Positions 1 through 54,737 of a DNA stretch of 64,000 bases are shown in pieces. The notes under the pieces were generated by a model. It made no database searches. It was not told the origin of the DNA and worked only from the letters and a program-made list of their open reading frames with translations. This stretch comes from Candidatus Binataceae bacterium (GTDB taxonomy: Bacteria; Desulfobacterota; Binatia; Binatales; Binataceae), in NCBI GenBank assembly GCA_036495685.1, contig DASXMJ010000011.1:1-64000 (forward strand), given 5' to 3'. A program made the translations under genes and the position numbers. Within the stretch, counting starts at the first letter, position 1, and each line of letters starts with the position of its first letter.

Positions 1-822
1 CTGCTCTCGATTACCATCCAATGCCTGTTCATGTACCTGATCGAGTACTTTGCCGCGAACTATTTCCTGAACAGCCTCTACAGTCTGGCCGATGCGAAGG
101 GGTCGGCGGCGCCCATCGGCGACATGATGGTCATCGTCGGCAACGTGATGCTGGGCGGGCACGGTCAGGCGTTCATGCTGGTCGAAGCCCTCACCGTGTT
201 CTTGGCGCTCATCGGTACGACTCTGAGCTGTATCAATACCGGTGCGCGCGTGACCTATGCGATGGGGCGAGATGAAGAGGTGCCGGAGCATTTTGGCTTT
301 CTGCATGGTGAAAATCTGACGCCTCATCGAGCGATCTGGACCCTTGCCACCATCTCGGCGGTCCTCGGCGCGTTTGCCGCACTCTTTTTCTTCGCTGGCA
401 GCGCCGCTCCGGACGACAAGACCATCGCGACTCTGCCGCACAGCATCTGGTACGCCCTCGGCATGAGCTCCAACGCATCGCTTGCCGCGCTGCCCAACGG
501 GTTGTCGCTGGTGACGCTGATCTCGAACTTCGGCACCTTTGCGGTGTATGGGTTGACGAACGTGATTTGCATCATTGCCTTCCGCGAACATCATATGTTC
601 CACGGGCTCAAACACGTGGTGATTCCGGTGTTCGGCGCGCTGGCCAACTTTGCCTGCATGGCCTTCTACATCATCGGCCCGATCGAAGGTCTCGGCAGTG
701 TAAAAGAACCCCTGATCGCGGTCGCCGTCTCGGTGGTTTGGGGCATCTACGGAGCAATTTACTTCTCGCGCAATTCGAAGAAGCGCGGAAAGGATACTAT
801 CCTCGCGGCCAAGCCGGCCTAA
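1..822 (+). CDS. APC-family amino acid permease, C-terminal part
   Basis: The frame is open from the first base, so the start lies before the window; about 274 residues are visible. The protein alternates long hydrophobic helices with short polar loops. It carries the loop NTGARVTYAMGRDEEVPEHF, typical of APC-superfamily amino acid/polyamine permeases, where a conserved R-x-x-YAMGRD segment follows a transmembrane helix. It ends in a short basic cytoplasmic tail (SRNSKKRGKD). The role inferred is inner-membrane uptake or exchange of an amino acid or amine; the substrate cannot be read. It runs in the same direction as the phosphatase genes that follow, separated by a 101-nt leader containing a strong hairpin. 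Confidence 0.82.
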   Translation: MLSITIQCLFMYLIEYFAANYFLNSLYSLADAKGSAAPIGDMMVIVGNVMLGGHGQAFMLVEALTVFLALIGTTLSCINTGARVTYAMGRDEEVPEHFGFLHGENLTPHRAIWTLATISAVLGAFAALFFFAGSAAPDDKTIATLPHSIWYALGMSSNASLAALPNGLSLVTLISNFGTFAVYGLTNVICIIAFREHHMFHGLKHVVIPVFGALANFACMAFYIIGPIEGLGSVKEPLIAVAVSVVWGIYGAIYFSRNSKKRGKDTILAAKPA

Positions 823-4097: not shown

Positions 4098-5446
4098 TGC
4101 CTGCCAGCCCGGTTACCTTGGACCAGTCGCTCAATCTCGCATGGGTGCTGATCGCGGGTTTCCTGGTGATGTTCATGCAGGCCGGCTTCGCAATGCTGGA
4201 AACCGGATTCACCCGCGCGAAAAACGCGACCAATACCATGGCCATGAACCTGATCATCTACCCCATCGGTGTGATCGGGTTCTGGCTGACCGGATATGCC
4301 TTCATGATGGGCGGGGTACGGAACTGGCCATCGCTGGGCGTCGCCGAGATCGGCCACTATGAATTGACTGTGACGCTAGGGGGGCATTCCTTCGGCATCA
4401 TCGGGCTAAGCAAGTTTGCGCTGGCCAATGTTAGTCATGAGCCGGCGAGCCTTGCGATGTTCCTGTTCGCACTGGTGTTCATGGACACTGCGGCCACCAT
4501 CCCGACCGGAGCGATGGCCGAGCGCTGGAAATTCATCGCATTCTTTATCTACGGATTTTTCATGTCGATGTTCCTCTACCCGCTGTACGGCAACTGGGTG
4601 TGGGGCGGTGGCTGGCTTTCCCAGCTCGGCGTGAATCTCGGTGTTGGACACGGGCATGTCGACTTCGCCGGATCGTCGGTGGTGCACATGACTGGCGGAG
4701 TGACCGCACTGGCGGGCGTGATCGTGCTGGGTCCGCGGATCGGCAAGTTCCGCCGTGACGGCGCGATCGGTGCACTGCCTGGCCATAACCTGCCCATGGC
4801 AGTCGTGGGAACCTTGATCCTCGCGTTCGGCTGGTTCGGGTTCAATGCCGGTTCGTCGTTGGCGGCATCGGATTCGCGCATCGGGGTGATCGCGGCCAAC
4901 ACCATGCTGGCCTCATCCGCCGGGGCGCTGAGCTCGCTTTTGTACCTGTGGCATCGCTTCAAGAAGCCCGATATCGCGATGGCCTGCAACGGTCTGCTCG
5001 GCGGACTGGTTGCGATCACCGCGCCGTGTGCCTTCGTCGGACCGCAGGCCGCGGTTCTGATCGGAACTATTGCAGGATTGATAGTGGTGTGGACAGTCCT
5101 GATGCTCGAGCGGCGCTTTCGAATCGACGATCCGGTCGGCGCCATTCCCGTCCACGGCGCCTGCGGTGTGTGGGGTGCACTTGCAGTGGGGATCTTCGCG
5201 GACGGCAGCTACGGCGAAGGGTGGAATGGGGTGGCGGGCCCGGTGCGCGGGATCCTCTATGGCGACGCCGGGCAATTGCTGGCCCAGCTGATCGGTGTGG
5301 TCACCAACCTGCTCGTGGTCTTCGGACTCGGCTTCCTGTTCTTCATCATCGTCGAACGCCTCATTGGCAATCGTGTGCTCGCGGAGGTCGAGTGGTCGGG
5401 CCTCGATGCGCTCGAGATGGGCAGCGACGCCTATCCTCACGTGTGA
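4094..5446 (+). CDS. amt: Ammonium transporter
   Basis: This 450-residue inner-membrane protein of the Amt/Mep/Rh family conducts ammonium into the cell as a trimer. Family features are present: GFAMLETGFTRAKN near the N-terminus, the Asp site in HVDFAGSSVVH, and the twin pore histidines in SSVVHMTGG and IPVHGACGVWG. About eleven hydrophobic helices are visible. No glnK/PII gene lies beside it, which is unusual because amt is normally paired with one. Instead it is coupled to a Ser/Thr kinase by a 4-nt overlap. Downstream lie an Lrp regulator and gltBD, so imported ammonium would feed GOGAT-linked assimilation. Confidence 0.95.
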   Translation: MMPASPVTLDQSLNLAWVLIAGFLVMFMQAGFAMLETGFTRAKNATNTMAMNLIIYPIGVIGFWLTGYAFMMGGVRNWPSLGVAEIGHYELTVTLGGHSFGIIGLSKFALANVSHEPASLAMFLFALVFMDTAATIPTGAMAERWKFIAFFIYGFFMSMFLYPLYGNWVWGGGWLSQLGVNLGVGHGHVDFAGSSVVHMTGGVTALAGVIVLGPRIGKFRRDGAIGALPGHNLPMAVVGTLILAFGWFGFNAGSSLAASDSRIGVIAANTMLASSAGALSSLLYLWHRFKKPDIAMACNGLLGGLVAITAPCAFVGPQAAVLIGTIAGLIVVWTVLMLERRFRIDDPVGAIPVHGACGVWGALAVGIFADGSYGEGWNGVAGPVRGILYGDAGQLLAQLIGVVTNLLVVFGLGFLFFIIVERLIGNRVLAEVEWSGLDALEMGSDAYPHV

Positions 5447-5498
5447 TCACACTGGCGGCGGCGAATTATGGTCGGACGCCGCCGGGAGGCAAGCCGCG

Positions 5499-6400
5499 GT
5501 GATCCTTGCCCGCTCACGCGCCCTGGTACGCCTTCAGCTGGCAATGGGTCTGGCGTTGGCGATGTTTCCGGCCATCGCGTGGGCGCAGGTCGGTGAACGC
5601 AATTTCTATTCGGCCCTGGTCACGGAGGGTACCGATCCCTCCAACGACCTGACCTTGTCACCGGGATGGGTGACGGTCTCGGGCCGGACTCAAGCCGCGT
5701 ATAGCTTTACCCTTGAGAAACAAATCACCAACAACATCAGCGTCCTTCTCGGAAACGCACTTGGCGACGCGGCGCGCCGCCGCCTGCAGGCGAGTTCTGG
5801 CGCCGACGATATGGAAATCCTGGCGAAATGGGCATTTTATCTGAACGCCGAGCACGAGTTTCGAACCGCGATCGCGCTCGATGTTTTGGGCGCCGACGGA
5901 AGATATAAGAGGCGGGCGCCGGTGGCCACTGGCGGGGTGGACCCATGGCTCTCGCCGAGAAGGGCGCTGGCGATCTACCCGACCGCGGGGTTTTTCACTA
6001 CCTGCGCCCGTTCGGGGTGCAGATGGACGCGGAGTACCTGCCGCGCTGGACCGGTTCGCAACTGGACCTCGTCGCATTTGATTCCGCGCTCAGTTATCAG
6101 CTCGACTACTTGTCGGGACCGGGATCCGATTTCGGAGTCGATTGGCCGTTGAGGCCGCTGGTCTTCCTTAATGAATTCAACTACCAGCAGATGGCGTGGG
6201 GCTTCCGGGCCACCGGAACCACGCCGGCCGATTGGCGCGTAACCCCCGGTATCGCCTACGCGACTAGGGGCTATCAGCTCGCGGCCGGCACGCAACTGGG
6301 TCTGAGCAAACTCGGCAGTAGGGCGTGCCATTCGACCGGGCTTTTTCAGGTCGACATCTACTTCGACCAGATCTTTCCGCAACTTGGTTCAACGTTCTGA
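5499..6400 (+). pseudogene. Secreted/outer-membrane-like protein interrupted by a -1 frameshift
   Basis: GTG at 5499 has a GGAGG about 10 nt upstream. It opens a signal-peptide-like N-terminus ending at FPAIAWA, then an export-type sequence rich in aromatic and polar strands (SFTLEKQITNNISVLLGN). The first frame loses coherence near 5985-5995. A second frame, -1 relative to the first, continues with the same composition (FHYLRPFGVQMDAEYLP) to the stop at 6400. The shift sits at GGGGTTTTTC. The joined product would be about 300 residues, probably a beta-rich outer-membrane protein. The cause may be a sequencing error, a true pseudogene or, less likely, programmed slippage. No specific function is recognised. 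Confidence 0.6.
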
Positions 6401-6438
6401 TGGTCACAAGCTTTTCAAGCCCACCGAGACGCTCCGGG

Positions 6439-6481
6439 GAGCCCGGTGAGGGCTCACCTACCGTCCCTGGGAATGGACGGT
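6439..6481 (+). other. Hairpins downstream of the frameshifted gene
   Basis: GAGCCC (6439-6444) pairs with GGGCTC (6450-6455), and ACCGTCC (6460-6466) pairs perfectly with GGACGGT (6475-6481). No T run follows. They may form a structured 3' end for the amt transcript. The rest of 6401-6650 holds no gene or riboswitch that I recognise. Confidence 0.35.
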
Positions 6482-6650
6482 ATTAGCCATATTAATCGCG
6501 CCTTAAATAGTGTCAGTGCTGCAGCCAGGTCACGGGTGAGTCAGGTCTCCATGACATAGCCGCCCCAAGGAAACGACGGTGTCGCGACTCCGCAGGCTAA
6601 GAATTCGAGATTTGCGTACCCCGAACCGAATAAAATCTTGTTATGAGAAC

Positions 6651-6697
6651 TTGAGACCTCAATAATCCTTGACTGACAAAGGCTTTCTCATTATCTT
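6651..6697 (+). promoter_or_regulatory. Promoter and inverted repeat upstream of the Lrp gene
   Basis: TTGACT at 6669-6674 and TATCTT at 6692-6697 are separated by 17 nt, a good sigma-70-type promoter about 28 nt before the ATG at 6725. Just upstream of the -35 box is the inverted repeat TTGAG-AC-CTCAA (6651-6662), well placed for an operator, possibly for autoregulation by the Lrp-family product. This promoter would drive lrp-gltB-gltD. Confidence 0.55.
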
Positions 6698-6724
6698 CAG
6701 CTCTCCGAAACGAGGATTAACCTT

Positions 6725-7291
6725 ATGAAATTAGGCGGCGATTCTGCGGAACTCGACGCGATCGACCTGCAGATTTTGAGCATCCTGCAGGCCAACGGGC
6801 GAATTCCGCATACCAAGCTCGCCGAACAGGTCGGCTTGTCCGCACCGTCGGTGATCGATCGGGTCAAGAAACTCGAGGACGGTGGTCTGATCGCCGGATA
6901 CTACGCCGCGCTCGATGCTCGCCGTCTCGGCAAAGATGTCACCGCGTTCATCGGCGTTTCGATCAGCCATCCCAAGACGATCGGCCTGTTCGAACAAACC
7001 GTTGATCTGCTCGAGGACGTTCTCGAATGTCACCACGTCACCGGGCAGCACACGATTCTGCTGAAGGTGAAAACCGAAAACACCACTTCGCTCGAACGGC
7101 TCATCAGCACGGTCCGTTCGATCGAGGGAGTGTCGCGGACCGAGACGATGGTGGTGCTGTCAACCCATACCGAGCGCAACACGATTGCGGTGCACGCCAA
7201 CGGCGAGACGGCGATGGAACTTCCCAACGGCCACGGCCGACGCCACCGACACGCCGCGCGCGGCACGCTCATCGATTCGAGGCGAACGTAG
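6725..7291 (+). CDS. Lrp/AsnC-family transcriptional regulator
   Basis: This 188-residue regulator has an N-terminal winged HTH at about residues 10-60 ([29 protein letters not shown]), then the alpha/beta RAM (AsnC effector) domain to about residue 150. It also has an unusual 35-residue Arg/His-rich tail after the RAM domain. The stop is 4 nt before the gltB start, so it is almost certainly co-transcribed with gltBD. In E. coli, Lrp activates gltBD; here linkage suggests a dedicated local regulator of glutamate synthase. The effector amino acid cannot be read from sequence. Confidence 0.9.
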
Positions 7292-18074: not shown

Positions 18075-19483
18075 GAGCCCGGCCGCGGAATGACTTTGTT
18101 GGGATTGGAGCGTTCCAGCGGGTCGAAGACGTGGCGCAGCTCGCTCATCGCGATCAGGTCCTCGGGTGAAAACAGCAACGGCATCTCGCCCTGCTTTTCA
18201 ACCCCGATGCCGTGCTCACCGGTCAGGCTGCCGCCCATCTCGACACAAGCGATCAGAATCTCGCGGCCCGCTGCAATCGCCTTGCGGACCTCTTCGGGTT
18301 TGCGCTCGTCGTACAGGACGATCGGGTGAATGTTGCCGTCACCGGCGTGAAAGACGTTGCCGATGGCGAGCCCGTATTTTCGACTGATCACCTGAATCGT
18401 ACGCAGAATATCCGGCAGGCGCGTGCGTGGCACCACGCCATCCTGGGTGGCGTAGTTGGGCGCGAGCCTGCCCACCGCGCCAAACGCTCGCTTACGTGCT
18501 TTCCACAATCCTGCGCGTTCGGTTTCGTCGCGCGCCAGTCTCACCCCGGACGCGCCATTGTGGCACGCGATCTCGGTCACACGCGCGGCATGCTCATCGA
18601 GGCCCGCCACAAGCCCGTCGAGCTCGATGATCAGCACAGCACCCGCCTCGGCGGGCAGGCCGACGTGAAAGGCGTCCTCGACGGCGCGGATGATCAGCTG
18701 GTCCATCATCTCGATCGCGCTCGGAACAATTCCCGACGCCATGATCGCGGACACCGCATGCGTGGCCGCCTCGACGTCGGCGAAGGTTGCCAACAGGGTT
18801 CGATGCCCCTCCGGCTCGCGGATGATTTTGAGGACGGCGCGGGTGACGATTCCCGCAGTTCCTTCCGCCCCAACCACCGCCCCCAGCAGGTCGTAGCCGC
18901 AGCGTTCTTCAGCCGGTCCACCCAGTTCGACGATTTCTCCATCGGCGAGCACCAGGGTAACGCCGAGAACATGGTTGGTGGTGACCCCGTACTTGAGCGT
19001 ATGTGGACCGCCGGAATTTTCCGCGATATTACCGCCGATGGTGCAGGCCTGCTGCGACGATGGATCCGGCGCGTAGAGGAAGCGGTCGCGTTTCACCGCA
19101 TTGGTGACGTGCAGATTGACCACCCCGCTCTGGACTTCCACTCGCCGATTCGCCAGATCGATGCTGAGGATCCGGTTCATCTTTGAGGTACAAATCATCA
19201 CCGGTGCGTTGACCGGAAGTGCTCCACCGGACAGCCCGGTGCCGGCCCCGCGCGGCACGAAGGCAACTTCGCGCCGCCACAGCGCTTTAAGAACCGCGCT
19301 TACCTGCTCGGTCGTACGCGGCATCACTAGGAGGTCGGGGCTGCACTTCTCGATCGTCCACCCGTCGCACTCGTAGACTTTCAGCTCCGCGGACCGCGAA
19401 ACTATCCCGTCGCTGCCGGCGATGGCCGCCAGTTCCGCGACCAGCGTCGGGTCGAGGCCGGTGGCCTGGGCGTTGTGGCTCAC
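18032..19483 (-). CDS. glcD: Glycolate oxidase catalytic flavoprotein subunit
   Basis: This 483-residue FAD enzyme oxidises glycolate (possibly also D-lactate or another 2-hydroxy acid) to glyoxylate. The PCMH-type FAD domain includes AFVPRGAGTGLSGGALP, IGGNIAENSGGPHTLKYGVT and GAEGTAGIVTRAVLKI. The C-terminal FAD-oxidase domain ends with GNVFHAGDGNIHP and GGSLTGEHGIGVEKQ, both catalytic-core signatures. It is the first gene of glcDEF, and an aminotransferase able to use glyoxylate diverges from it. Confidence 0.93.
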   Translation of the reverse strand: MSHNAQATGLDPTLVAELAAIAGSDGIVSRSAELKVYECDGWTIEKCSPDLLVMPRTTEQVSAVLKALWRREVAFVPRGAGTGLSGGALPVNAPVMICTSKMNRILSIDLANRRVEVQSGVVNLHVTNAVKRDRFLYAPDPSSQQACTIGGNIAENSGGPHTLKYGVTTNHVLGVTLVLADGEIVELGGPAEERCGYDLLGAVVGAEGTAGIVTRAVLKIIREPEGHRTLLATFADVEAATHAVSAIMASGIVPSAIEMMDQLIIRAVEDAFHVGLPAEAGAVLIIELDGLVAGLDEHAARVTEIACHNGASGVRLARDETERAGLWKARKRAFGAVGRLAPNYATQDGVVPRTRLPDILRTIQVISRKYGLAIGNVFHAGDGNIHPIVLYDERKPEEVRKAIAAGREILIACVEMGGSLTGEHGIGVEKQGEMPLLFSPEDLIAMSELRHVFDPLERSNPNKVIPRPGSCVEVAAPHRQVPI

Positions 19484-19567
19484 GCCGTGAACAATAGCAC
19501 AGCGCTTGCGCCCGCGGCATTTTCCGCCAACCCGCGACGGGCAATAATAGATGAATTCCGGCGCCTG

Positions 19568-19587
19568 CCGAATCGAGCGCGATTCGG
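19568..19587. promoter_or_regulatory. Perfect inverted repeat in the glcD/aminotransferase divergent region
   Basis: CCGAATCG-AGCG-CGATTCGG is a perfect 8+8 bp inverted repeat with a 4-nt spacer, lying 24 nt before the TTG start of the aminotransferase in the only control region shared with glcDEF. It could be the operator of a dimeric regulator of both transcription units, or a hairpin in the aminotransferase leader. No convincing -35/-10 pair was seen here. Confidence 0.4.
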
Positions 19588-19611
19588 GAACGCGTCATAA
19601 GGGGAAGGATA

Positions 19612-20796
19612 TTGACGGAACAATTTGCAGAGCTCAGACCGACCGCGCGCATCCTGCTGGGCCCGGGGCCCTCGAACGTTCATCCGCGCGTGATGAAGGC
19701 GATGATGTCGCCCGTGATCGGACACCTCGATCCCGATTTCGTGAAAGTGATGGAGGACCTCAAGCGTCTGCAGCGCGTCGTTTTCCGAACCCAGAACGAA
19801 ATGACGTTTCCGGCTTCAGGCACCGGCTCCTCCGGAATGGAGATGATCGCGGCCAACCTGATCGAAGATGGCGACCAGGTCATCGTCGGCGTGAACGGCG
19901 CGTTTGGTGCACGCTTCGCCGACTGCGCCGAGCGACAGGGTGCCAGGGTTCACAAGGTGGAAGCGGAATGGGGGCGAATAATCGAACCCGACGCGGTCAA
20001 GCAGGCGCTCGCGAAGGTTTCCAATCCGAAGCTTGTCGTCATGGTGCACGCGGAGACCTCGACGGGCGTTCATCAACCAATTGAAGAGATCTCCGCCCTG
20101 ACGAGCACCCACGGCGCGTTGCTGGTCGTTGACGCGGTAACCTCGCTTGCGTGTGTCCCCCTGGAAATCGACAAGTGGGGAATCGATGCCTGCTTCAGTT
20201 GCACGCAGAAGGGGCTGAGCGCGCCCCCGGGCCTGGCGCCGGTAACCTTCAGCGCCCGCGCGATGGAGGTGATACGGCGGCGCAAGTCCAAGTGCCGCTC
20301 CTGGTACCTGGATGTCGCCGCGATTGGCAGCTACTGGGGCTCGGAGCGCGTGTACCATCACACCGCCCCGATCACGATGATCTACGCGCTCTACGAAGCC
20401 CTGCGGGTGGTGATGGAAGAAGGCCTGGAGCAGCGATGGCTGCGCCATCGCAGCAACGCCGCCGCGTTGCACGCCGGTCTGGGGGCGCTCGGGCTTAAGC
20501 TTGCCGCACAGGAGGGCCGCCGCCTCCCGCAGCTCACCACGGTCGCGGTGCCGGCGGGAGTGGATGAGGCAAGGGTGCGTGCGGAATTGCTGCAGCAGTT
20601 CAACATCGAGATTGCCGCGGGCCTGGGACCGCTGCGAGGCAAAGTCTGGCGGATCGGCCTCATGGGTGAGAGCTCGCGGCGCGAGAACGTGACGCTGGTA
20701 CTGGGCGCGCTCGAGCAAATTCTGGCGGGAGCAGGATTCGAGCTTTCCCGGGGCAAGGCGCTGGCAGCGGCACAAGCTGCCTGGGCCAGCCTATGA
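19612..20796 (+). CDS. Alanine-glyoxylate / serine-glyoxylate-type aminotransferase (class V)
   Basis: This 394-residue PLP enzyme of the AGXT/SGAT family begins at TTG 19612, with AAGGGGAAGG just upstream. The N-terminal LLGPGPSNVHPRVMKAM and ASGTGSSGMEM are typical. HAETSTGVHQPI and LLVVDAVTSLACVPLEID form the cofactor pocket, and the Schiff-base Lys is in CFSCTQKGLSAPPG. Such enzymes transfer an amino group from alanine or serine to glyoxylate, making glycine. Divergent placement from glcDEF supports a glycolate-to-glyoxylate-to-glycine route. Which amino donor is used is not visible. Confidence 0.88.
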   Translation: MTEQFAELRPTARILLGPGPSNVHPRVMKAMMSPVIGHLDPDFVKVMEDLKRLQRVVFRTQNEMTFPASGTGSSGMEMIAANLIEDGDQVIVGVNGAFGARFADCAERQGARVHKVEAEWGRIIEPDAVKQALAKVSNPKLVVMVHAETSTGVHQPIEEISALTSTHGALLVVDAVTSLACVPLEIDKWGIDACFSCTQKGLSAPPGLAPVTFSARAMEVIRRRKSKCRSWYLDVAAIGSYWGSERVYHHTAPITMIYALYEALRVVMEEGLEQRWLRHRSNAAALHAGLGALGLKLAAQEGRRLPQLTTVAVPAGVDEARVRAELLQQFNIEIAAGLGPLRGKVWRIGLMGESSRRENVTLVLGALEQILAGAGFELSRGKALAAAQAAWASL

Positions 20797-49985: not shown

Positions 49986-50959
49986 CAGTTCGCGACCGGA
50001 GTCCTGATCGCGAAGGTTTCCGCGATCCAAACTGCGGTCAGCGCCGCCAGCCGCGGATTGTCAAACGTGCACCAGAGGTCGACCCCTGCGCGGCTTTGCT
50101 CGGCACTGATCTGGATCGCCTCCTGCCCGAGTGCATCGATGATCGAAAGCGGCTGTCCCTCCGCGATTAGCAGTACGCCTGGCATCGCACGCAGCGTTTC
50201 GAGCCACTGCCCCCCGCTCGCTTCGAGCTTGGCCGAGACCGTCAATCCGGTTCCGTGCAGGACGGGGATGGAAACTAGTTGCACCGCCAGCGAAGACAGT
50301 GCCGCCGCCGTCAGCGCGGCCGCCTGCGTCGCGATGCGCTCGGCCAGCGCACGCTCGGTTTCACGGGAAAATGCATTGAAGGCGCGCTGCACCTCCTCTT
50401 CCTCAAGATCGAGGCGGGCCGAGAGCAGGTCGGTGGTCTGATCGACCAGCCGCGCGATCGCTCCCCGCCCGCCCGCCGATGCGCCGGTCAGCACGGACGC
50501 GCTTGCCATCGAGGGTTGCAGCGCATCCAGACACAAGGTCAGCACCTGGGCGGCGGGATGCGGGATGGTAAAATTTCTGGCGCTGCTCAGCTGTGCGATC
50601 TGCGCTCGCGTGGTTACTCCGGGCGCAACCATCGGCGCGCTGCTGGAGGGGTTGCGAGCCGCACCGCTCAGATCAATGAGGAGCGGTCCAGGCGCGGCGC
50701 GCGTAATATCGGCAGCCACACTTTCCGGGACTGCCAGGAAGGCGACGTCAAATGCGGCCAGGTCATCGGCATCGCGCAGCGCCTCGACCAGGTACTCGTC
50801 TTGCTCGGTCTCCAGGGTGCCGGCGGCACCGCTCTGGCTGGCAAACAGGGTCAGCCGTGAGTGCGGAAATCCGCGCGCCGCGATCAGCTCGACAATCTCA
50901 TTGCCCACCGCGCCGGTGGCACCCACCACAGCCACGCTCGGCTCGCTGGTCGTGGACAT
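49985..50959 (-). CDS. Aspartate-semialdehyde dehydrogenase paralogue lacking catalytic residues (Usg-1-like)
   Basis: This 324-residue protein keeps the Asd fold, beginning VAVVGATGAVGNEIVELI (NADP loop) with FLAVPESVA and LLIDLSGAARN. The active-site NPNCST motif is replaced by IPHPAAQV (Ala137 at the Cys position), and the catalytic GHS-type His region reads LHGTGLTVSA. It should therefore not reduce aspartyl phosphate. In Pseudomonas, leuB-asd-usg precede truA, and Usg-1 is a similar inactive Asd paralogue. The position here between leuB and truA fits that identity. TGATG overlaps on both sides show tight coupling. Confidence 0.82.
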   Translation of the reverse strand: MSTTSEPSVAVVGATGAVGNEIVELIAARGFPHSRLTLFASQSGAAGTLETEQDEYLVEALRDADDLAAFDVAFLAVPESVAADITRAAPGPLLIDLSGAARNPSSSAPMVAPGVTTRAQIAQLSSARNFTIPHPAAQVLTLCLDALQPSMASASVLTGASAGGRGAIARLVDQTTDLLSARLDLEEEEVQRAFNAFSRETERALAERIATQAAALTAAALSSLAVQLVSIPVLHGTGLTVSAKLEASGGQWLETLRAMPGVLLIAEGQPLSIIDALGQEAIQISAEQSRAGVDLWCTFDNPRLAALTAVWIAETFAIRTPVAN

Positions 50960-52062
50960 CAGCTCTCCGCGGGCTCGAGTTTTTCCCGCACCAGCCGGCC
51001 CATCGCCTTGCACCCGATGAACTTGGTGCCGGCCCCGCCGAGATCGCGAGTGCGATGTCCCTCCTTGAGGACGGCGTCGACAGCCTGCGTGATCAGTTCC
51101 GCTTCGGCGCGCAGACCCAGCGAATGCTCAAGCAACATCGCAGCGGAAAGAATCGCGGCCAGGGGGTTGGCTTCGTCGCGGCCCGCGATGTCCGGCGCGC
51201 TGCCGTGGATTGGCTCGAATAGTCCGACCCGGAAGCCGGCGCTGTTGAGTTCCTCGCCCAGCGATGCCGACGGCAGCAGGCCCATCGATCCTGCGAGGAC
51301 CGACGCTTCGTCGGTCAGGATGTCACCGAACATATTTTCGGTGACGATCACGTCGAAATCTCTTGGACGGCGAATCAGGTGCATCGCCATGGAATCGACC
51401 AGTTGGCTCTCAAACGCGACGTCCTTGTACTGGTTGCTCAATTCCAGTGCGACCTCGCGCCATAGGCGCGACGAAGACATCACGTTCGCCTTGTCAACCG
51501 AGGTCAGTTTCTTGCGACGCTCGCGCGCCAGCTCGAACCCGAAGCGTAGCACGCGTGCGATTTCATGCTCGTTGTAGAAGCAGGTGTCGACCGCTTCGCG
51601 CCCATCCTTGCCTCGGCGCTTTTCGCTCGGCTGTCCGTAGTAGATCCCGCCGGTCAGCTCGCGAATTACCACCAGGTCGACGCCGTTGATCAGCTCGGGC
51701 TTGAGCGGCGACGATCCCAGCAATTCCTTGACCGCGCGCACCGGACGCAGGTTCGCGAAGAGCCCCAGTGCCTTGCGCAATCCGAGCAGCGCTTGCTCGG
51801 GACGCTGGTTGGCGTTGGGGTTGTCCCATTTTGGACCCCCCACCGCGCCCAGCAAGATGGCATCGGCATCCTGCGCGTGCTTGAGCACCTCGTCGGGCAA
51901 AGGAGTCCCGTGAGCATCGATAGCGTGGCCGCCGATCACGCCATCTTTGAATTCCAGATCGATCGCCGCTTCGCGCGCCACGGTCTTTAGGACCTGCAGC
52001 GCCTCGCCGACGACCTCGGGGCCAATGCCGTCACCCTTCAGAACTAGAATTTTGTAGGCCAT
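50959..52062 (-). CDS. leuB: 3-isopropylmalate dehydrogenase
   Basis: This 367-residue enzyme performs oxidative decarboxylation of 3-isopropylmalate in leucine synthesis. ILVLKGDGIGPEV opens the protein. LLGAVGGPKWDN, ELTGGIYYGQP and the metal-site segment EVALELSNQYKDVAFESQLVDSMAMHLI are conserved, as is VTENMFGDILTDEASVLAGSMGLLPSASLG with the NAD-binding HGSAPDIAGRDEANPLA. It follows leuA after a 205-nt gap in which I see no supported gene. It is translationally coupled to the Usg-like gene. Confidence 0.97.
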   Translation of the reverse strand: MAYKILVLKGDGIGPEVVGEALQVLKTVAREAAIDLEFKDGVIGGHAIDAHGTPLPDEVLKHAQDADAILLGAVGGPKWDNPNANQRPEQALLGLRKALGLFANLRPVRAVKELLGSSPLKPELINGVDLVVIRELTGGIYYGQPSEKRRGKDGREAVDTCFYNEHEIARVLRFGFELARERRKKLTSVDKANVMSSSRLWREVALELSNQYKDVAFESQLVDSMAMHLIRRPRDFDVIVTENMFGDILTDEASVLAGSMGLLPSASLGEELNSAGFRVGLFEPIHGSAPDIAGRDEANPLAAILSAAMLLEHSLGLRAEAELITQAVDAVLKEGHRTRDLGGAGTKFIGCKAMGRLVREKLEPAES

Positions 52063-52267: not shown

Positions 52268-53836
52268 TTAGCGCACGTCCATCGTTGGTTTGAGAGGCAT
52301 GGCGGTACGCCCCTTGAGCCGGTTGAGCGCGTTAACCAGGGCCAGCGCACTGGCCATCACGATGTCGCTGTGCGCTCCCGCGCCCGCGACGGTCATCCCG
52401 TTTTGGCGCAGCAGGCAGCTTACTTCCCCGAGCGCATCGGTCCCCCCGGTGATCGCTTTTACCGCGTAGCGTTCGAGCGCCGGCTGGAGGCCGACAATCT
52501 TGTAGATCGCCTTGTAGCAGGCATCCACCATCCCGTCTCCTACCGCCTCCCCGCGTTTCTCGTCCCCGTCGACCCGCAGCGCGACCTGTGCGTGAGGTAG
52601 CGACCCGGAGGCCGAGCTGACCTGGAGATCTACCAACTCGTAGTGATCGGTGGTTCGGCGCGCTTCCTCGGTAACCAGCGCCAGAATGTCGTCATCATAG
52701 ATGACCTTTTTTTTGTCGCAGAGCGCCTTGAACTCGACGAATGCTTTGTTGAGATCAATCGAATCGGTAGCGACCCCCAGATGCTTGAGCCGATCGGCAA
52801 AGGCGTGACGGCCTGAGTGCTTGCCGAGCACCAGTTTGTTGGACGGAATGCCGATGTCCTCCGGCTTCATGATCTCGTAGGTCAGCTTGTATTTGAGTAC
52901 CCCGTCCTGATGGATTCCCGCTTCGTGAGCGAATGCGTTGTCGCCCACGATCGGCTTGTTGGCGGGCACCGGCTGGCCAATCACCTGCGAGAGCAGGCGC
53001 GAGGCGGGAAAAATCTGGCGCGTGTCGATGCGCGATTGAACACCCATCAGGTCGTGCCGCGTCTTCATCGCCATCACGACTTCTTCCATCGAGCAGTTGC
53101 CCGCGCGCTCGCCGATGCCATTGATGGTGCATTCGATCTGACGGGCGCCGTTTTTGACCGCCGCCAACGAATTTGCCACCGCCAATCCAAGATCGTTGTG
53201 ACAATGCGCGCTCCAGATAACCTTGTCACTTCCCGGTACATGCTCGCGCAGATAGGAGAACATCCGACCGAATTCTTCGGGAAGTGCGTGGCCGGTCGTG
53301 TCGGGCAGATTAATCACCATGGCGCCCGCGCGTATCACCTCGGCGCAGACCTTGGCCATGAAGTCCCAGTCGGATCGCGATGCGTCCTCGCAGGAGAACT
53401 CGATGTAATCAAGGTTCTTCCTGGCGCGGGTGACCGCCCAGGTAGCCGCATCCAGCACGTCCTCGCGTGTCATGTTGAGCTTGTACTTCATGTGGATTTC
53501 GGAGGTGGCGAGGAAAATGTGGATGCCAGGATTATGGGCCTTGTCCACCGAGCGCAGCGCCTGGTCGACATCCTCTTCACGCGTGCGTGACAGGCTGAGA
53601 ACCCGCGGACCCTTGACCGAGTCGGCTACCCGCCGCACCGATTCGAAATCGCCCGGAGAGGAGGCGGCAAAACCCGCCTCGATAATGTCGACGTTGAGCC
53701 GGTCGAGCTGGCGAGCAATAGTAATCTTTTCCTCGACGTTCATGGTGCATCCCGGCGATTGCTCGCCATCGCGCAGCGTGGTGTCGAAGATCCGCACATA
53801 ATCGGTTTCGGCGGGTGTAGTATTGAAGTCGGCCAT
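52268..53836 (-). CDS. leuA: 2-isopropylmalate synthase
   Basis: This 522-residue enzyme condenses acetyl-CoA with 2-oxoisovalerate, the first committed step to leucine. The TIM barrel has RIFDTTLRDGEQSPGCTM, and the metal His-x-His in SAHCHNDLGLAVANSLAAV. GNCSMEEVVMAM and AFAHEAGIHQDGVLK follow. The C-terminal LeuA dimer domain (SGSLPHAQVALRVDG...YKAIYKIVG) is the leucine-feedback regulatory region. A GGAGATG site precedes the ATG. Upstream lies the attenuator at 53886-54041. Confidence 0.97.
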   Translation of the reverse strand: MADFNTTPAETDYVRIFDTTLRDGEQSPGCTMNVEEKITIARQLDRLNVDIIEAGFAASSPGDFESVRRVADSVKGPRVLSLSRTREEDVDQALRSVDKAHNPGIHIFLATSEIHMKYKLNMTREDVLDAATWAVTRARKNLDYIEFSCEDASRSDWDFMAKVCAEVIRAGAMVINLPDTTGHALPEEFGRMFSYLREHVPGSDKVIWSAHCHNDLGLAVANSLAAVKNGARQIECTINGIGERAGNCSMEEVVMAMKTRHDLMGVQSRIDTRQIFPASRLLSQVIGQPVPANKPIVGDNAFAHEAGIHQDGVLKYKLTYEIMKPEDIGIPSNKLVLGKHSGRHAFADRLKHLGVATDSIDLNKAFVEFKALCDKKKVIYDDDILALVTEEARRTTDHYELVDLQVSSASGSLPHAQVALRVDGDEKRGEAVGDGMVDACYKAIYKIVGLQPALERYAVKAITGGTDALGEVSCLLRQNGMTVAGAGAHSDIVMASALALVNALNRLKGRTAMPLKPTMDVR

Positions 53837-53885
53837 CGGTCATCTCCTCGTTTGCCCCTGGATAGTTCCGAAAAAGCCGCATCCT

Positions 53886-53993
53886 CAAAAAGGAAACGCC
53901 CCGGGCGGCTTCTTCGGCCCACCGCCCGGGGCGTTCGTCTCGGTTTTCAGGGGCCGGTCAGACCCGTTCCGCGACGCACCCGGCGTGGGCCCT
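53886..53993 (-). promoter_or_regulatory. leuA transcription attenuator (antiterminator and intrinsic terminator)
   Basis: Reading the minus strand, the terminator is a perfect 14-bp GC-rich stem (53935-53922 with 53908-53895, 13-nt loop) followed by TTTCCTTTTT, ending about 53886. An alternative 2:3 helix pairs 53992-53979, inside the leader peptide gene, with 53930-53916, which is the terminator 5' arm plus loop (13 bp with two single-G bulges). Segment 2 can instead pair with segment 1: GGCCCT (54003-53998) with AGGGCC (53993-53988), loop TACG. These three mutually exclusive helices match the classic amino-acid attenuator layout. Confidence 0.82.
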
Positions 53994-54041
53994 CGTAAGG
54001 GCCAGGCTAAGAAGTAGTCCGGGTAGCAGGGTGCGAAACAT
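53958..54041 (-). CDS. leuL: leuA leader peptide (Leu-rich, 27 aa)
   Basis: This short frame (ATG 54041, TGA ending 53958) encodes MFRTLLPGLLLSLALTRAHA followed by GCVAERV. Seven of codons 5-15 are leucine, and five of these are CTA or CTT, which should be scarce in so GC-rich a genome. The start lies 10 nt after a -10 box, so the mRNA is nearly leaderless. The leucine run sits just before attenuator segment 1. A ribosome stalled there for lack of Leu-tRNA would block the 1:2 hairpin and allow the antiterminator. Confidence 0.82.
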   Translation of the reverse strand: MFRTLLPGLLLSLALTRAHAGCVAERV

Positions 54042-54050
54042 AACGGGCCG

Positions 54051-54080
54051 ATTTTAGGCGGACCCCGAAACCCTAGTCAA
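54051..54080 (-). promoter_or_regulatory. Promoter of the leu leader and leuA
   Basis: On the minus strand TTGACT (54080-54075) and TAAAAT (54056-54051) are spaced by 18 nt. The leader-peptide ATG at 54041 begins 10 nt after the -10 box, so transcription should start within about 0-3 nt of the start codon. The divergent PyrE-like gene begins at 54138. Confidence 0.72.
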
Positions 54081-54137
54081 GGTCGGACCACAACGGCCGA
54101 GTTTTGTCGTAGCTGTTAAAGCCTTATTTCAGCTGCC

Positions 54138-54737
54138 ATGGACGATGAACTGCTTAAGTTGTTCGAAACGCGAAGGGGACATTTTCGTCTCGAATCGGGC
54201 CATCACGGCGACTTGTGGCTTGAGATTCCGCTCGCCTTTCTTCGGCCCGGTCGGCTGCGCCCGCATGCGCGGCGACTTGCGCGTATGCTCGTGGCGTATC
54301 GCATCGAAGCGATCTGCGGACCGCTGGTGGAGGGCGCATTTCTCGGGCAAATGGTGGCCGAAGAACTCGCCCTGGAATTCTTATTCGCCGAGCAGTTTCC
54401 GCAACCCAGCAAAGATGGTCTGTTCCCGGTCGGTTATCGCGTCCCCGCATCGCTGCGCTGTCGAATCAAGGGCAAACGGGTAGCGGTGGTCGATGACGCT
54501 ATCAATGCAGGTTCGGCGGTCCGCGGCGCCATCGAAGACTTGAAGACCTGTGGCGCGCAACTCGTGGCGATTGGCGCACTGCTGCGGCTTGGTGACCGCG
54601 CTGCGGTCCTGGCCCGCGCCGAGGCGGTGCCGCTGGTGACTTTGACTCGCCTCGAGGGCGGCACTTTGTGGAGTCCCTCCGAGTGCCCGCTGTGTAGAGC
54701 GGGCACCCCGCTCGATGATCAGAGGGGCATCCAGTAG
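54138..54737 (+). CDS. Orotate phosphoribosyltransferase-like PRTase
   Basis: This 199-residue type I phosphoribosyltransferase has FRLESGHHGDLWLEI and ICGPLVEGAFLGQMVAEEL, which resemble OPRTase substrate-binding parts, and the PRPP loop VAVVDDAINAGSAVRGA. It ends with LWSPSECPLCRAGTPL, a Cys pair common at the C-terminus of one group of PyrE-like proteins. It probably makes OMP from orotate, but a related base cannot be excluded without phylogeny. It diverges from the leu leader. Confidence 0.75.
   Translation: MDDELLKLFETRRGHFRLESGHHGDLWLEIPLAFLRPGRLRPHARRLARMLVAYRIEAICGPLVEGAFLGQMVAEELALEFLFAEQFPQPSKDGLFPVGYRVPASLRCRIKGKRVAVVDDAINAGSAVRGAIEDLKTCGAQLVAIGALLRLGDRAAVLARAEAVPLVTLTRLEGGTLWSPSECPLCRAGTPLDDQRGIQ

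Follow-up and report, generated by a model that had tools for sequence, protein, structure and literature searches.

A probable leucine attenuator with a near-leaderless leader peptide before leuA in Candidatus Binataceae, predicted by sequence comparison

The Leu-run leader LeuL1 of Streptomyces lividans is leaderless and lies before leuA without a typical terminator, and leaderless ilvL and trpL with terminators are reported in the same paper (PMC8079986). For the LEU elements of Actinobacteria a pseudoknot mechanism has been proposed (PMC1262725). In Sinorhizobium meliloti, the trpL transcript starts at the leader ATG, and attenuation yields the short RNA rnTrpL (PMC7298713). Neither the attenuation mechanism nor the leaderless start is therefore new (PMC8079986, PMC7298713). 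We found no report of classical attenuation in Candidatus Binatota, the uncultured phylum whose class Binatia includes the family Binataceae, in the literature of the one library searched; such an absence is not proof, and a leucine attenuator in Binatota appears to be unreported in that literature.

Here we analyzed a stretch of 64,000 nucleotides (the window), part of the 4.69-Mb draft genome of a Candidatus Binataceae bacterium. The LeuA encoded in it shares 72-89% identity with LeuA sequences from MAGs titled Candidatus Binataceae, Deltaproteobacteria or Proteobacteria, and the genome falls in the same family as these MAGs. The window had no match to the covariance models of Rfam 15 at the gathering cut-off, and permissive thresholds returned only sub-threshold chance matches. 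A sequence-only reading had proposed a complete leucine attenuator before leuA, and all of the items it listed were found where it placed them, with an antiterminator longer than it had stated. On the minus strand, the unit runs from the promoter through the leader ORF, the 1:2 hairpin, the terminator with its T-rich tail and GAGGAG to leuA, and its upstream neighbor is a divergent phosphoribosyltransferase gene (54138-54737, plus strand). The features are:

54075..54080, minus strand: -35 box TTGACT, assigned from sequence; TTGAC precedes the leader in 33/33 aligned relatives
54051..54056, minus strand: -10 box TAAAAT, separated from the -35 box by an 18-nt spacer
53958..54041, minus strand: ORF of the leader peptide MFRTLLPGLLLSLALTRAHAGCVAERV (27 codons), lacking a Shine-Dalgarno; 5' UTR predicted at 0-3 nt
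53997..54017, minus strand: control codons 9-15 (CTA CTT CTT AGC CTG GCC CTT), from Leu conservation; stall window 9-13 in the fold model
53988..54003, minus strand: 1:2 (protector) hairpin GGCCCU/AGGGCC, 6 bp
53961..53991, minus strand: antiterminator 5' arm, leader codons 17-27, from pairing conservation and stalled folds
53916..53955, minus strand: antiterminator 3' arm, which includes terminator arm 3, from pairing conservation and stalled folds
53896..53934, minus strand: terminator hairpin ACGCCCCGGGCGG/CCGCCCGGGGCGU
53886..53896, minus strand: T-rich tail of the terminator, TTTCCTTTTT, from sequence
53844..53849, minus strand: Shine-Dalgarno GAGGAG of leuA
52268..53836, minus strand: leuA, 2-isopropylmalate synthase (HMGL-like, LeuA_dimer)
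50959..52062, minus strand: leuB, isopropylmalate dehydrogenase (Iso_dh), the next gene 3' of leuA

We consider it very probable, on comparison of related sequences, that this region controls leuA as a classical ribosome-mediated transcription attenuator that responds to the supply of leucyl-tRNA. In our working model, the ribosome would initiate on the leaderless or near-leaderless 5' end and trail RNA polymerase. When leucyl-tRNA is low, it would stall at Leu codons 9-13 and mask the 5' arm of the 1:2 hairpin. Leader codons 17-27 would then pair with the RNA that begins at the stop codon and extends to the terminator loop. The resulting 27-bp antiterminator would capture the 5' arm of the terminator, letting polymerase continue into leuA. 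When leucine is ample, the ribosome would reach the UGA, which is part of the apical loop of the antiterminator, and so hold the antiterminator open, the 1:2 hairpin would cap the base of the antiterminator, and the 3:4 terminator would end transcription. Both the stalling of the ribosome and the response to leucine are what we infer from the sequence. As expected of a leu-type attenuator, the genes that follow belong to the cognate pathway, leuA and then leuB, and the control probably reaches leuB and the semialdehyde-dehydrogenase gene behind leuA.

The promoter TTGACT-18-TAAAAT is present on the minus strand and is the one promoter-like site in positions 53800-54400, where shuffles expect 0.1. 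Nine nucleotides after its -10 box, at 54041, comes the ATG of the leader ORF, and the 27-codon frame with seven Leu among codons 5-15 is present as claimed. These Leu codons, at positions 5, 6, 9, 10, 11, 13 and 15, are CTG CTA CTA CTT CTT CTG CTT. That five of the seven are CTA or CTT is likewise true; among the long ORFs of the window, these two codons account for 12% of Leu codons (CTT alone 9.6%), so that the probability of five or more in seven is 4.5e-4.

We built a covariance model, R1, from 33 relatives. R1 matched 40 of the 41 Binataceae genomes (E values from 2e-5 to 4e-37) with one good match per genome, and the only genome without a match is 53% complete. The genome studied here likewise holds a single R1 match besides weak ones, and all R1 placements that we checked adjoin leuA, just upstream of it. 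Because the element is conserved to this extent, chance is ruled out as its origin. In Binataceae relatives, the Leu-rich ORF upstream of leuA closely follows a TTGAC-type promoter and is mostly 27 codons long (23-29 in the 33 aligned sequences). Conservation of the Leu codons, which the sequence-only reading had set as a test, is found: all 33 relatives have Leu at codons 11 and 15, 32/33 have it at codons 9 and 13, and 30/33 at codon 10. CTT is used at codon 11 in 26/33 relatives and at codon 15 in 30/33, as against the 9.6% background.

Diverged versions of the leader lie before leuA in other Binatia families (for example at loci L049, L051, L052, L111, L116, L121, L174 and L175), and several other Binatia families examined yielded no Leu-rich ORF upstream of leuA. 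At L049, L051-L053, L055 and L112, all from other Binatia, two tandem terminator-like hairpins stand between the Leu leader and leuA. Farther afield, a Gammaproteobacteria MAG (L083) and two Planctomycetota MAGs (L096, L103) carry, upstream of leuA, a Leu-rich short ORF and then T runs with hairpin-like sequence, and the leader of L083 appears near-leaderless too.

How close to the ATG would the leader transcript begin? In all 33 aligned Binataceae sequences, the -10 box lies 6-11 nt before the ATG, while the intervening bases vary. Sigma-70 transcription starts about 7 nt downstream of the -10 box, and a 5' UTR of 0-5 nt is therefore expected in the family; for the locus studied here, the promoter predicts a start 0-3 nt before the ATG. 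Pairing energies between the upstream sequence and the 16S tail average -2.1 kcal/mol at the leaders and -9.1 kcal/mol at leuA of the same loci, and the Shine-Dalgarno level of -6 kcal/mol is reached by 3/43 leaders versus 42/43 leuA starts. A start site far upstream had been named as evidence that would count against the attenuator; with the -10 box this near and the Shine-Dalgarno lacking, the comparison favors a start at or next to the ATG. Such a start is, judged by promoter position, the rule in Binataceae and not universal, because in the divergent Binataceae loci L029, L048 and L127 the -10 box is more distant, with an apparent 5' UTR of roughly 20-30 nt. Genome-wide, we saw no excess of promoters 7-11 nt before an ATG (9 versus 8 in the reversed control), and leaderless genes are thus not shown to be common. 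Two adjacent genes of the same genome (L131 and L132, contig C9, 23843-24530), glutathione S-transferase-like by eye, each have TTGACC and, ending 8-9 nt upstream of the ATG, a -10-like box; they are likely leaderless ordinary genes.

We then turn to the RNA structures. The leader fold is more stable than dinucleotide shuffles of it (z = -3.2, 0/200 as good). The claimed terminator and T-rich tail were found, with 13 ungapped pairs (53934-53922/53908-53896) and 15 in the energy model in place of the 14 bp first counted. Across relatives, 96.6% of terminator cells are paired, and six pairs have changed on both sides. The stem conservation that had been set as a further test is seen in both of the competing structures, as covariation as high as that of the terminator occurred in 0/500 shuffles and that of the inner part of the antiterminator was matched by 1/500 within the family. 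This inner part, in which 90.5% of cells are paired and one position shows A-U replaced by U-A, G-C and G-U, also exceeds all slid controls.

The existence of the antiterminator, proposed as 53992-53979 with 53930-53916, therefore stands, and its extent does not: in the fold model, the actual pairing is about twice as long, with 27 pairs between 53991-53961 and 53955-53916, and the leader UGA sits in its apical loop. We compared own with swapped arms of the extended antiterminator in 21 leaders from across the class, most of them belonging to other families and genera. The energy was -39.8 kcal/mol for own arms and -32.6 kcal/mol for swapped ones (0/10,000 permutations), in a type of test that relatedness inflates inside a family and less so across families. 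At the corresponding place, L174 pairs CCCGCCCG with CGGGCGGG, and L051 pairs CCCGUCCG with CGGACGGG. A stem at the stop codon, which we had considered as a separate hairpin, gave a modest result in own versus swapped arms (16/5000) and was rejected, as the stalled fold places it at the antiterminator apex.

These structures bear on a different possibility, that the leader peptide controls leuA otherwise, in the manner proposed for the LEU element, through a pseudoknot or at the level of translation, with the Leu codons pairing with the leuA Shine-Dalgarno. Leaderless Leu-rich ORFs do precede leuA without a terminator in Streptomyces (PMC8079986), and mutations in S. coelicolor are at odds with classical attenuation (PMC1262725). 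Here, however, a strong, covarying terminator with a T tail lies between the leader and leuA, and a co-evolving antiterminator excludes it, and we regard this explanation as very improbable.

The 1:2 hairpin was found exactly as claimed, with arms 54003-53998 and 53993-53988. It formed in 32/33 folds, and own arms beat swapped ones (2/5000). Plain-column covariation is absent, because the pairing is displaced by one base in relatives with GGGCCU/AGGCCC, and it is on this register shift among relatives that the case for the putative hairpin rests.

We next consider whether the predicted switch could respond to stalling. In a scan that placed a ribosome footprint of about 32 nt along the leader, an A site at codon 9, 10, 11 or 13 left 26-27 pairs of the antiterminator, of which 14-15 involve the terminator arm, and an A site at codons 15-28 left zero pairs with the terminator arm. 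Codons 9-13 should thus be the sensors, because a stall there leaves the antiterminator and a stall at codons 15-28 does not. In the fold model, codon 15 would be too near the antiterminator arm to serve as a stall codon; its conservation probably serves the 1:2 stem, and its CTT may be fixed by the 1:2 pairing too. When folded with a stalled ribosome, all 33 relatives formed 13-17 antiterminator pairs that involve the terminator arm. Once arm 4 has been made, the energy model favors, for most of these 33 sequences, the terminator despite the stalled ribosome, and the switch must therefore act kinetically; kinetic control is a general assumption for classical attenuators. The mechanism of leucine attenuation claimed for this leader is in this way supported by sequence comparison together with stalled-ribosome folding.

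A real attenuator could have further roles, with the terminated RNA or the leader peptide also acting in trans, like rnTrpL and peTrpL of S. meliloti, a precedent that is documented (PMC7298713). The short leaderless RNA would finish in a stable terminator, and A18, A20, Q26 and A/V27, outside the Leu run, are fairly conserved among the 33 aligned relatives. Yet the conservation of these residues is explained by antiterminator pairing of the same nucleotides, and leader residues 1-8, variable across the alignment, are free to change, so that we consider a role in trans improbable.

Attenuator-like leaders also occur elsewhere in this genome. On contig C95 (L179), a leader, MIPAYDRSLRGTQLLGLILIVVVGLTEAIAP, and a terminator precede ilvB (5352-7001); the leader contains LLGLILIVVVGL and recurs in three relatives (L183-L185). 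No such leader was found at the second ilvB copy of the genome (L178). On contig C51 (L182), a leader, MKNCTNQKAWAWRWHVAAPACALVL, and a terminator lie upstream of trpE (18639-20021), and a Trp-rich leader followed by a terminator was read before trpE in 29/30 Binataceae loci (relatives L186-L214), the motif being WAWRW in this genome and WWRW or NWRW in relatives. At most trpE leaders, TTGAC is accompanied by a -10-like box no more than about 14 nt from the ATG; the trpE leaders are apparently mostly near-leaderless, and the ilvB leader promoters are weaker matches. His- or Phe-rich leaders before hisG and the prephenate dehydratase gene were not found in this genome. We raise as tentative, and slightly less probable than its converse, the idea that the classical leu, trp and ilv attenuators of Binatota are all leaderless, with the leucine stall on rare CTT and with sensing dependent on leaderless 70S initiation.

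The parallel leaders also speak to a non-regulatory account, in which the ORF is the gene of a Leu-rich, signal-peptide-like short secreted or membrane peptide that has its own terminator. The leader does resemble the core of a signal peptide, but its location is always before leuA, its Leu codons are skewed to CTT, the distal half of the ORF co-evolves with the terminator arm, and the same genome has a Trp-rich leader at trpE and one rich in Ile, Val and Leu at ilvB. We give this account almost no weight and retain the leucine attenuator as the preferred reading.

Finally, how does this predicted attenuator compare with known systems? Relative to S. meliloti trpL, it reads Leu instead of Trp, and trans roles are known there for the RNA and the peptide. 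LeuL1 of S. lividans and the Actinobacteria LEU element share with it a Leu-run leader peptide before leuA, transcribed leaderless in those bacteria (PMC8079986, PMC1262725) and predicted to be near-leaderless here. They differ in that a pseudoknot is proposed for them, whereas the Binatota locus has a full terminator/antiterminator pair; the LEU element is terminator-free, and here a terminator is present. In folding, it resembles Escherichia coli leuL (NC_000913.3 83622-83708), which encodes a 28-codon leader before leuA whose Leu run occupies codons 10-13. Under the same folding treatment, its antiterminator starts in the ORF right after the Leu codons and reaches the terminator arm, with the stop codon in the apical loop. 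We had considered an ORF-internal antiterminator arm combined with an apical stop codon to be a new architecture, and dropped this idea because E. coli leuL folds alike. The antiterminator of E. coli leuL is weaker in the same model (-19.9 versus -43.6 kcal/mol in Binatota), and E. coli leuL has a 5' UTR with GGAG, whereas the Binatota start is predicted to be near-leaderless. The likeness to enteric leuL in all but the ribosome site, which the sequence-only reading had drawn, is thus seen in the shared geometry and in the GGAG before E. coli leuL. Together, the comparative evidence points to classical ribosome-mediated attenuation in Binatota, and the group, whose leaders for leu, trp and ilv all look near-leaderless, forms a natural set for studying how a ribosome that starts leaderless can follow RNA polymerase closely enough for attenuation to work. 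The E. coli and Binatota leaders have a common fold geometry despite different start signals.
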